From Olivibacter jilunii (lineage in GTDB: Bacteria; Bacteroidota; Bacteroidia; Sphingobacteriales; Sphingobacteriaceae): a stretch of 64,000 bases of DNA. This document shows positions 31,210 to 36,419 of this stretch, piece after piece. The stretch lies in NCBI RefSeq assembly GCF_900607235.1, contig NZ_LR027852.1, positions 310,001-374,000 of the forward strand. The letters are read 5' to 3'. The position numbers were made by a program, and so were the translations under genes. The first letter of the stretch is position 1. Each line of letters begins with the position of its first letter. The notes below the pieces were generated by a model. It made no database searches, was not told the origin of the DNA, and was given only the letters and a program-made list of their open reading frames with translations.

Positions 31210-31301
31210 GCTTGAGGAACAATAACCAATCATTCGGAAGCCATTCAGCCGCTACTATTGTCATCCAAATGTCGAATCGACTTAATTGTTGGCAAAAATA
31301 T

Positions 31302-31332
31302 TTTGAAGTGTGTACTTTTTACACTATCTTTG
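31302..31332 (+). promoter_or_regulatory. Promoter of small RNA copy 1
   Basis: TTTG (31302-31305), exactly 19 bases, TATCTTTG (31325-31332): a full match to the Bacteroidota consensus. The spacer contains the dyad GTGTA-CTTTT-TACAC (31310-31324), a possible repressor site. A 25-base block (TATTGTCAT..AAATGTCGAATCGA) at 31256-31280 is also shared with copy 2. Confidence 0.75.
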
Positions 31333-31337
31333 TGTCA

Positions 31338-31402
31338 TCATAATTTAGGTTTATAATTGGTTAGTTAAAAGTCTTCAATCTCCCCGGTTGAAGACTTTTT
31401 TT
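31338..31402 (+). ncRNA. Candidate intergenic small RNA, copy 1
   Basis: A short transcript of about 65 nt is predicted between the promoter at 31302-31332 and an intrinsic terminator with stem GTCTTCAA (31371-31378)/TTGAAGAC (31388-31395), loop TCTCCCCGG and a seven-T tail. The whole unit from 31309 to 31402 is identical to 35311-35404 except for one base. It has no ATG and no room for a peptide. The next gene downstream is convergent, so it is not a leader. The C-rich loop and unpaired 5' part could base-pair with targets. Transcription start is estimated. No Rfam family is claimed. Confidence 0.7.
31367..31402 (+). terminator. Intrinsic terminator of small RNA copy 1
   Basis: Eight-base-pair stem GTCTTCAA/TTGAAGAC preceded by AAAA and followed by seven Ts, so A-T pairs can extend it. 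The hairpin is identical in copy 2. Confidence 0.8.
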
Positions 31403-31464
31403 ATTTCATGTTTAGCAATATAGCGATACGTTAGCAAGTACAAATCAAGCTTCGATATTACCGA

Positions 31465-32348
31465 CTATTCCATAAATACACCGGGTTCTTTTTTATTGTC
31501 TAAAAACTCTTCAGCCATAGGGATCCACCAGCTGGACCTTGCCATCATACCGATATGTGTAGTACCTGGTAAGATAGCCATGCGAGAAGTAGACATTTCG
31601 CCGAAGTCGCCCATTTTAGCACCACCCTTCATGCGCATCAGCTCATTGGCATGTTCATAGCGAATACCGTCCGCATCACCTAATAACATGAGGATAGGAA
31701 TATCCATTTTACGAACGTCTTCTGTCCAATCGTAAGGTTTTAAATCAATGCTCATTGTCTTGGTGAAAAACTCATTAAATTTCTCTGGATGAGGAGAAAG
31801 GGCTTTATAAGCATCTTCTAATGGCGAGCCTTTAAACATATCTGCAGTCATCGTTGCGAACGTTTTTTCCGTTTCGGGCCACCAACCATCGTGTTTATAC
31901 GCACCAGATACAATCACTAGTTTTTTCACTTGTTCCGGATGGCGGATACCCATTTGGAAAGCAACTCCGCCACCCATGCTATAACCGAGTATGTCAGCGC
32001 TATCGATGTGAAGGTGTTTAAGTAACTCGCTAATATCATCCGCCATATTTTCGTAACTGAGCGCACGGGGAATGTCAGCTGTACGGCCGTGCCCCTGCAT
32101 CTCTGCTACCACAATTTTTCTGTTTTTGAAAAGAGGAATAATTTGTTCCCAGTTCATCGGAATGGTCATAAACGAACGTGAATCAGTACAAGCGGTGCTC
32201 CCTCGCCGTGCACTTCATAATACATCTTTAAACCATTTATTGGCGCATAACCCGTTTTGTTCTGAGATGGCTGGGCATAAAGTTTTACTTGGAATCCTTG
32301 TGAGACGACAATTAGTGCAAGGATGATACATGTTCTTAACGATTTCAT
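31465..32348 (-). pseudogene. Frameshifted secreted alpha/beta-hydrolase
   Basis: Two adjacent minus-strand frames together make one alpha/beta-hydrolase. The first part, from the ATG at 32348, has a signal peptide (to about LYAQ) and runs GLKMYYEVHGEGAPLVLIH before shifting out of frame into VRL and a stop. The second part continues in the next frame with FMTIPMNWEQIIPLF, the nucleophile elbow GYSMGG and the His region PGTTHIG. At 32177/32176 the DNA reads CACGTTCG where the family needs CAC-GGT-TCG, so one G is missing in the conserved HG oxyanion motif. Either a real inactivating deletion or a sequencing error. Without the shift the enzyme would have about 290 residues; substrate unknown. 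Confidence 0.85.
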
Positions 32349-34967: not shown

Positions 34968-35303
34968 TTATTTATCACTTAAGTACTCGTACAAACGGAC
35001 TACAGCTACTGGTTTCTTGTGGCTTGTTTATGTAATTGGCTAATAAAGTACGTGTCGTTTTCGCTGTAGACGCTAACAAAATTTTTAATTAAGTTGCGAA
35101 TAAATATTTAAAGTAGCAAGTGTGTCTTTGGTTTTTTGAGTTGTTGAAACGTTGTGTGGTGACTAGTAGCCTCTGGTTTCTCAAATCACTTGTTGAGATG
35201 GAGATACGAATAGCCACATGCTGAAATCCAACTGCTAGTAGCAGCCAATATTGTCATGAAAATGTCGAATCGATTGCCGGGTCTAAAGTTTCGGTGAAAA
35301 TAG

Positions 35304-35334
35304 TTTGTAATGTGTACTTTTTACACTATCTTTG
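35304..35334 (+). promoter_or_regulatory. Promoter of small RNA copy 2
   Basis: TTTG (35304-35307), 19 bases, TATCTTTG (35327-35334), with the same GTGTA-CTTTT-TACAC dyad (35312-35326) between the boxes. The shared upstream block TATTGTCAT..AAATGTCGAATCGA lies at 35249-35273. The -33 box is kept although the surrounding bases differ from copy 1, suggesting selection. Confidence 0.75.
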
Positions 35335-35339
35335 TATCA

Positions 35340-35404
35340 TCATAATTTAGGTTTATAATTGGTTAGTTAAAAGTCTTCAATCTCCCCGGTTGAAGACTTT
35401 TTTT
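35340..35404 (+). ncRNA. Candidate intergenic small RNA, copy 2
   Basis: Second copy of the about 65-nt transcript unit described at 31338. 35311-35404 differs from 31309-31402 at one position only (A for G near 35336, just after the -7 box). Terminator stem GTCTTCAA (35373-35380)/TTGAAGAC (35390-35397), seven-T tail to 35404. The downstream gene (35466-36419) is on the other strand, so this too is a stand-alone unit. DNA outside the unit is unrelated between the copies apart from the upstream block, which argues for a duplicated gene and not a large recent segmental duplication. Confidence 0.7.
35369..35404 (+). terminator. Intrinsic terminator of small RNA copy 2
   Basis: Same stem, C-rich loop and seven-T tail as copy 1. 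It could also work against the convergent MarR-GNAT transcript because the stem is flanked by A/T runs. Confidence 0.8.
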
Positions 35405-35465: not shown

Positions 35466-36419
35466 CTAGGCACATATTAAGGACATCTGAATATTACAGC
35501 GCTTATAGGGTGAGACGTGACCGGTAATTTTTTGGAAACCTAACTTATAATATAGATTAATAGCAGGCTTAAGGATCGTATTGCTTTCTAAATAAAGAGC
35601 TTTTGCGCCTATTTTACGCGCTTCGTTTATTGCCGATTGGCCGAGTAGATAGCCAATGTTCTTCCCTTGGGCTTTGGGAGATACCGCCATTTTTGCGAGT
35701 TCATAATCATAGTCTGGATCGTTCATTTTAATCAGTGCGCAAACACCCACCGGCTCGCCACGATATAAAGCTACGAAAATCTTACCTCCCGGGTTCAGGA
35801 TGTATTGATCCGGATTTTCCAGCGCTTGGCGATCCGCTTCTTCAAGTTCAAAATAAGTGGAAATCCACTCTTCATTGAGTGTTTTGAAGGCAGTATGATA
35901 AACGGCATTATATTTTACAATCGTTACATCTTTGCTTTCACGGATTTTTTTTTGCTCTATCACCCGTTTGTAGAGTGGCTGCTGATCTAGCAGAAATTCC
36001 CACTCTTCCATGGCTTCCCATAAATTATGCTGTGCAGTTGAAATCAGCGCGTCAATAGCAGCATTGACATCCGCATACTGATCTTTTATTTTGACGCCTA
36101 GCATTCTTCCTTTTTTTGTCAGCGCGACTACATTTCTTCTTTTGTCGTCTGTTTTACGGTTTTCCAATATCAAACCTGCAGCTGTCATCTCGCGGATAAT
36201 TTTGCTGACCGATGGTTGAGAGTGGCCGATTTTGTTAGCGATCTCACTAATGGTATTTTCACCTTCTTCTGCTAAGATGAAAAATACCGGAAACCACTTC
36301 GGTGCCAAATCGACGTCATATAACTTATAAATGCGAGCGGCATCTTCAGTAACTTTTGCTGTTAATAATCGCAGACGGCTTCCTAGTGCCATCTTTCCCG
36401 TTTTTTCGAATAAATCCAT
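35466..36419 (-). CDS. MarR-type regulator fused to GNAT acetyltransferase
   Basis: Protein of 317 residues with an N-terminal winged-helix MarR domain (about 1-145; recognition region TISEIANKIGHSQPSVSKIIREM given in part, NRKTDDKRRNVVALTKKG wing) and a C-terminal GNAT domain (about 150-317) with the acetyl-CoA loop KAQGKNIGYLLGQSAI and LYLESNTILKPAINLYYKLGF. Fusions of this kind are common in Bacteroidota and actinobacteria; their acetylation substrates are mostly unknown. Monocistronic, convergent with small RNA copy 2. It could regulate the nearby RND operon but this is only positional. Confidence 0.9.
   Translation of the reverse strand: MDLFEKTGKMALGSRLRLLTAKVTEDAARIYKLYDVDLAPKWFPVFFILAEEGENTISEIANKIGHSQPSVSKIIREMTAAGLILENRKTDDKRRNVVALTKKGRMLGVKIKDQYADVNAAIDALISTAQHNLWEAMEEWEFLLDQQPLYKRVIEQKKIRESKDVTIVKYNAVYHTAFKTLNEEWISTYFELEEADRQALENPDQYILNPGGKIFVALYRGEPVGVCALIKMNDPDYDYELAKMAVSPKAQGKNIGYLLGQSAINEARKIGAKALYLESNTILKPAINLYYKLGFQKITGHVSPYKRCNIQMSLICA

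Follow-up and report, generated by a model that had tools for sequence, protein, structure and literature searches.

What is encoded by two near-identical 94-nt units in the genome of Olivibacter jilunii, and if they give rise to an RNA, what would this RNA act upon? Both lie in the window, a stretch of 64,000 nucleotides of contig NZ_LR027852.1 (positions 310,001 to 374,000). An initial annotation, made from the letters of the window, described them as a duplicated, stand-alone small RNA gene and suggested an undescribed regulatory RNA family in Sphingobacteriaceae.

Two stand-alone units in the window

The two units (31309-31402 and 35311-35404) differ at a single base (position 26, G/A). 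As first described, each combines a promoter, a dyad between the promoter boxes and the same terminator (Table 1). The promoter motif TTTG-N19-TAnnTTTG, which we take to be a promoter type of Bacteroidota, occurs at one further site on the forward strand of the window (37453) and at none on the reverse strand. The flanks of the units are unrelated, with ungapped identities over 100 nt of 36% upstream and 29% downstream. The exception, also seen in the initial annotation, is a 24-nt block, ATTGTCAT..AAATGTCGAATCGA, which is common to the 5' sides of both units. With three mismatches, this block also stands 5' of an sRNA copy at L143, which comes from a different genome of the genus. It is possibly an activator site of some copies, or else a sign of shared ancestry. 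On the 3' sides, the open reading frames at 31465-32169 (-) and 35466-36419 (-) are convergent to the units, and therefore neither unit is the leader of the next gene, in agreement with stand-alone sRNA genes.

Table 1. Coordinates of the two units and their parts in the window.
Feature	Copy	Position	Strand	Remark
Upstream block ATTGTCATnnAAATGTCGAATCGA	1	31257..31280	+	21 nt 5' of the -33 box
Upstream block	2	35250..35273	+	
Promoter TTTG-N19-TATCTTTG	1	31302..31332	+	
Promoter TTTG-N19-TATCTTTG	2	35304..35334	+	
Dyad GTGTA-N5-TACAC, between promoter boxes	1	31310..31324	.	
Dyad GTGTA-N5-TACAC	2	35312..35326	.	
Predicted sRNA	1	31337..31402	+	5' end predicted, +/- a few bases
Conserved core	1	31339..31363	+	antisense to susC leader and AUG
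Terminator hairpin	1	31367..31402	+	CCCC loop and T run
Predicted sRNA	2	35339..35404	+	core 35341-35365; terminator starts at 35369

The predicted sRNA of ~65 nt consists of a single-stranded 5' core, UCAUAAUUUAGGUUUAUAAUUGGUUAG, and a terminator hairpin. For copy 1, the predicted fold shows a free 5' part with the core unpaired, followed by a terminator hairpin of 14 pairs (z -3.3). An Rfam scan of the whole window, which had been proposed as a check, returned no match at the gathering threshold, and laxer scans (E<=10) gave no relevant match. For a connection with the neighbouring katG gene and peroxide stress, at which the initial annotation had hinted, nothing was found.

Copies, promoters and phages

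The supposed duplicate turned out to be two of many copies. In the own genome, which comprises 6.7 Mb in 21 contigs, blastn gave 44 matches at E<=10; the first 24 loci were read individually, and 19 of them (L001-L018, L022) are sRNA genes with core and hairpin. A covariance model, R1, was built from 14 of the own copies and one copy of Olivibacter domesticus, a species in which NZ_FOAF01000001 carries, near 1.18-1.20 Mb, three near-identical copies with the exact terminator. R1 covers 31334-31399 of copy 1. At E<=0.01 it has 18 matches in the own genome, and the 17 that were listed are all among the 19 genes. At the same threshold it matches 79 of the 101 genomes and 20 of the 25 genera of the bacterial family, own genome included, with up to 30 matches per genome. 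Copies can stand in tandem, as in L148, where three lie within ~575 bp.

In an alignment of 15 sequences, TCATAATTTAGGTTTATAATTGGTT is invariant. Covariance analysis, likewise proposed at the outset, revealed that the terminator hairpin covaries: 9 of its 13 pairs differ in both partners when 14 distinct sequences are compared, pairing is retained in 98% of cells, and the covariation score is reached by 0 of 500 shuffles. The loop is variable in sequence (CTCCCCGG, GCCCAT, and CTGGATGG in g14), and a CCC-containing loop is kept across the own copies. One copy of the GCCCAT-loop class (L015, own genome C5:73601-73663) lies ~210 nt 5' of a susC reading frame that runs in the same direction.

In a phylum sample, R1 matched 9 of 296 genomes, namely 7 of the same family and 2 weak ones from another family of the same class (E 4e-4 and 2e-3), which we left uncounted. 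Exact core matches are listed only within the family (395 phylum genomes at up to two mismatches; 78 with a match). Elsewhere the core pattern yields at most three matches per genome, each with one or two mismatches, and the reversed control reaches five. Searching plasmids and phages with the 94-nt unit by blastn produced chance-level matches only. The weak R1 match L205, from the other family, was rejected for want of GG blocks. The other one, L204 (genome G269), carries AGGTTTTAATTTGGTT ahead of a terminator hairpin and could represent a diverged member from beyond the family.

For genomes that were empty by R1, we performed a relaxed search of 10 genomes and read 11 stretches. Diverged members came to light in g14, where CTCATAACAGGTTTATATTTGGTTAG, or a sequence close to it, precedes a hairpin in 7 stretches from 6 genomes, and in g8, where TCATAATTCATAGGTTTAGGTTAG with a hairpin is present in both of two genomes. 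The stretches read also included a rearranged member in g21 and one from G035 (g14) that did not resemble a family member. In L388, from genus g21, the family promoter with dyad and a family-like terminator enclose several TTGGTTAG-like blocks in place of the core.

Among the 19 own copies, 12 have the -7 box TAnnTTTG and 8 have both the -33 and the -7 box, the remainder having other or unseen promoters. The dyad, proposed early on as an operator, is real and occupies the same position in copies of genera g4, g17, g19, g16 and g21, but its exact form GTGTA-N5-TACAC is confined to 6 of the 19 own copies. Three of the four exact sites of AGTGTA-N5-TACACT in the own genome lie at sRNA promoters, and one mismatch brings in three further sRNA promoters; at two mismatches the motif is no commoner in this genome than its reversed control. 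We consider the dyad a probable operator. The same dyad, AGTGTATTTAGTACACA, also occurs in the own genome at L100 9649-9665 (C5:49649), 214 bp upstream of a susC start, so that a PUL may be under the control of the same regulator.

In genus g16, 9 of 24 copies, some of them probably orthologous and hence not all independent, carry TGGCA[CT]-N5-TTG, starting 36-39 nt 5' of AGG. This pattern has the -24/-12 form of a sigma54 promoter. Its background is 7 occurrences in 1.6 Mb of G064 strand, and rpoN is present in five of five genomes examined. In L148, L150-L152, L154, L164 and L224, which belong to genomes G073, G064, G082, G053, G095, G089 and G016, TGGCAY-N5-TTG replaces the sigmaA-type promoter, and the core of the sigma54-type copies is slightly altered (AGGTTAATAATTGG).

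Copies also reside on phages. The exact 18-mer TAGGTTTATAATTGGTTA is found on 45 IMG/VR contigs (L269-L313), and R1 matches 41 of them at E<=2.1e-5 with the hairpin included, which amounts to a full sRNA gene; the core was the search key here, and the independent evidence is the hairpin and the flanks. In seven of these contigs, 14 of 16 neighbouring proteins match PHROGs, with 12 falling into terminase, portal, head and head-protease families (6 of the 7 contigs). These six are therefore tailed phages, and their sRNA gene lies within or close to the genes for packaging and head. In four of eight phage loci (L270, L282, L299, L300), ARAGORN detects a tRNA that ends ~20 nt or less 5' of the core. 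It finds none 5' of the g3 copies L168-L170, and the reading of a tRNA there was withdrawn. A match in Tenacibaculum phage JQ was also discarded, as its first block is devoid of GG, a hairpin is missing, and it resembles an A-rich gene start.

Complementarity of the core to susC start regions

The reverse complement of the core, TAACCAATTATAAACCTAAATTATG, is an A-rich leader with its AUG. With up to three mismatches, this 25-mer has 17 sites in the own genome, every one at an sRNA gene. The core is the antisense of an idealised susC translation initiation region, AUG included. Here, an anti-AUG UCAUA is followed by the GG blocks AGGUU and UGGUU, whose predicted partners in the leader are AACCUAA and CUAACCAA.

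The own genome contains at least 56 SusC genes (56 of 206 candidates scored). We calculated duplex energies between the core and 757 gene starts, comprising 65 of susC and 692 of other genes. Starts were set at the first ATG and drawn from loci L051-L080 and from stretches totalling 1.19 Mb, many of which had been selected around susC; the susC and susD sets were defined by our own profiles. The core pairs better with susC starts (mean -11.4 versus -8.8 kcal/mol, p=8.8e-11), and the difference of -2.61 is attained by 0 of 120 shuffled cores, for which the corresponding value is -0.28 (sd 0.55). The excess is largest in the window from -40 to +10 and, by position, at -15 to -11, with a smaller excess in the flanking windows (-80 to -31, p=0.003; +11 to +60, p=0.015). 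Strong pairing (<=-14 kcal/mol) is predicted for 18 of the 65 susC leaders versus 36 of the 692 other genes.

The leaders themselves point to the same sequence. Among words present in at least five own susC leaders, the top 6-mer is ACCTAA (12/65 versus 12/692; p=7e-8, uncorrected for 4096 words), the top 7-mer AACCTAA and the top 8-mer AAACCTAA, each an exact antisense match to the core. For G064, of genus g16, the difference between 45 susC and 394 other starts is -3.18 versus -0.05 (sd 0.56) for shuffles, with 0 of 150 reaching it. The top 6-mer (TAACCA) and 7-mer (TAACCAA) of its susC leaders are antisense to the core; the top 8-mer, ATAACCAA, is not. For susD starts, no pairing excess is seen in the own genome (p=0.27), and the excess in G064 is weak, being reached by 4 of 150 shuffles. 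As susD is usually the second gene of the operon, such a result would follow from targeting of the 5' gene of the polycistron.

Relation to FopS and proposed function

The closest published counterpart is FopS of B. thetaiotaomicron, described in 2025. FopS has 14 paralogues (12-15 per genome) of ~65-70 nt, is conserved in Bacteroidaceae, and has been shown by experiment to pair with susC start regions and to block translation in vitro (PMC11697453). We arrived at a FopS sequence independently by screening 500 kb of Phocaeicola massiliensis sequence for units made up of promoter, spacer and terminator and picking one of the 8 candidates by look. This unit (L401) scores 77.8 bits against RF04319 (BTncRNA_FopS; gathering 56) and serves as a positive control. 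Rfam scans of three Phocaeicola stretches gave no FopS, which was present in a fourth. The unit is found at 28 places in 19 records of the plasmid collection (Bacteroides, Parabacteroides, Phocaeicola, Prevotella) and also in 3 phage records. In PLSDB, the "circular plasmids" OY725xxx-OY726xxx (Bacteroides finegoldii, Phocaeicola massiliensis, Parabacteroides distasonis) resemble chromosome pieces. A different promoter-terminator repeat, unlike FopS and 96% identical over 50 nt, occurs in Phocaeicola massiliensis at L396 24789 (+) and L402 37664 (-).

FopS and the Olivibacter family are alike in being multi-copy RNAs of ~65-70 nt with a free 5' seed antisense to susC starts and a terminator behind it, in using the TTTG-N19-TAnnTTTG promoter (seen in L401) and in occurring on phages. 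Their cores (UCAUAGUAUUAGAUUUAAGGUUAACAAAGGUU in FopS) follow a common plan of anti-AUG, AGGUU, short spacer, GGUU and terminator. However, seed and hairpin differ in sequence, the cores do not fit each other's leaders, and the Olivibacter family has a dyad as well as, in one genus, sigma54-type promoters. RF04319 has no match at E<=10 in the window at 31240-31460, in 12 own loci and in 8 loci of diverged members, and none at E<=5 in 15 phage loci. FopS is bound by the RRM-1 protein RbpB. PF00076 (RRM_1) gave no match in the own genome (G000), G064 and G016, and one match each in G035 and G077, and an RbpB-like protein is thus not a fixed companion. With neither a match to the Rfam model nor RRM_1 in the genome, the family would work like FopS and yet is not to be filed as FopS.

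Other known RNAs are more distant. GibS of Bacteroides (RF04182) shares the R1 seed of FopS and binds start regions (PMC7366714, PMC11697453). Unlike the Olivibacter RNA, which is predicted to end at ~65 nt, GibS is ~145 nt long with a second seed, R2, and other targets, and RF04182 has no match at E<=10 in the window at 31240-31460. DonS and similar cis-antisense sRNAs of Bacteroides reportedly repress polysaccharide utilisation operons by antisense pairing; they are encoded opposite their own target, whereas the Olivibacter family is trans-encoded and multi-copy. The Qrr sRNAs of Vibrio are sigma54- and Hfq-dependent. They resemble the family in being multi-copy and sigma54-dependent, as some g16 copies may be, but are unrelated and serve quorum sensing. 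Qrr sRNAs are mentioned in the discussion of the FopS paper (PMC11697453).

The suggestion of an undescribed RNA family therefore stands in so far as the family exists in Sphingobacteriaceae and no earlier description of it was found in the literature searched, a body that excludes bioRxiv and most subscription journals and in which the FopS paper alone came near; it has to be amended in that the family is a counterpart of published FopS.

If pairing with susC keeps the core as it is, cores should fit the leaders of their own lineage. We compared five cores (g1, g16, g14, g8 and FopS) with five sets of susC leaders (n=65, 60, 15, 15 and 14). Of all 120 assignments, the cognate one ranks first by energy and by z, followed very closely by the assignment in which g1 and g16 trade places. 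Taken set by set, the best-fitting core is the cognate one in three of five cases by energy and in four of five by z; the susC leaders of G064/G089 favour the g1 core over the others. Swap tests are significant for g14 (p=0.018), g8 (p=0.003) and FopS (p=1.5e-8), and not for g1 versus g16 (p=0.22). The susC leaders of Phocaeicola are preferred by the FopS core (-13.8 versus -9.0 for 290 other genes, p=7e-6) and show no preference with the Olivibacter core (-8.3 versus -8.3, p=0.49). Conversely, no fit is seen between Olivibacter susC leaders and the FopS core (z -0.8). Not all non-cognate pairs are neutral, as seen for the FopS core on G064/G089 leaders (z -2.3) and the g8 core on Phocaeicola leaders (z -2.4). 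Genera g14 and g8 had been chosen as sRNA-free controls and still showed complementarity to susC leaders; since they hold diverged members, there is no clean negative control within the family. Of all the evidence, lineage-matched pairing speaks most strongly for the view that the core is maintained by its pairing with susC.

This evidence has to be weighed against three other readings. Many dispersed copies, tandem clusters as in L148 and the copies on phage contigs would all suit a MITE- or REP-like selfish element that carries a promoter and a terminator, with susC complementarity as an AT-rich by-product. Yet the stems have been rebuilt by compensatory changes, the terminator is the sole inverted repeat common to the surroundings of both window copies, and the flanks are unrelated; in g16, the type of promoter changes and the core stays. 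Composition-matched shuffled cores lack the susC signal and the pairing is lineage-matched, which makes a selfish element improbable.

Alternatively, the sRNA might mainly target other mRNAs, such as those of ECF sigma/FecR operons, susD-like genes or two-component systems, with susC a minor share of what an anti-start-codon RNA can reach. An anti-AUG core suits many A-rich starts, and none of the 11 best single matches in the own genome is a susC start; by eye, SusD-like, FecR-like and sigma-factor-like starts are among them. As a class, however, susC is enriched in two genera and relative to shuffles, the enriched words of susC leaders are antisense to the core, and susD is not enriched in the own genome, so that we consider a predominance of other targets unlikely. 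Even less probable is an RNA that acts by sequestering a protein, or as a sponge, without pairing to mRNA: the high copy number and the CCC-containing loop retained in the own copies would be compatible with such a role, but it is the single-stranded core that is invariant while the loop varies, and the own genome has no RRM_1 match.

Taken together, we propose with good confidence that the two units belong to a multi-copy sRNA family of Sphingobacteriaceae and that this family, a lineage-specific counterpart of FopS, represses susC translation at the start site. Judging from the sequences, the RNA is most likely produced, pairs with susC mRNAs in vivo and blocks ribosome loading. In this model, the sRNA would act in trans and pair with the leading gene of susCD operons at its start site. 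By covering this site, it would prevent ribosomes from loading and thus keep unneeded glycan importers off. Copies under sigmaA with the dyad, under sigmaA without it and, in one genus, under sigma54 would let several signals converge on a single silencing RNA.

A wider scenario is speculative, though it has some chance of being right. Here, each lineage of Bacteroidia would have its own multi-copy RNA against susC starts, co-evolving with the leaders while promoters are swapped between dyad-bearing sigmaA and sigma54 types, and tailed phages would use the RNA against the importers of their hosts. If this is true, a phage-borne RNA near packaging genes could, for instance, exclude competitors or free translation.

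Compared with FopS, the family is new in its sequence, its lineage, the conserved dyad, the sigma54-type promoters of one genus and the copies on 41 phage contigs. That a second bacterial family has this anatomy with a different, lineage-matched seed suggests that RNA silencing at susC starts controls glycan uptake more widely in Bacteroidota and is not specific to the gut, and this silencing may operate without an RRM protein. The lineage-matched seeds form a natural series of compensatory mutations that is directly testable, and the sigma54-type promoters, the dyad and the phage copies provide leads to the signals involved and to the interference of phages with host nutrition.
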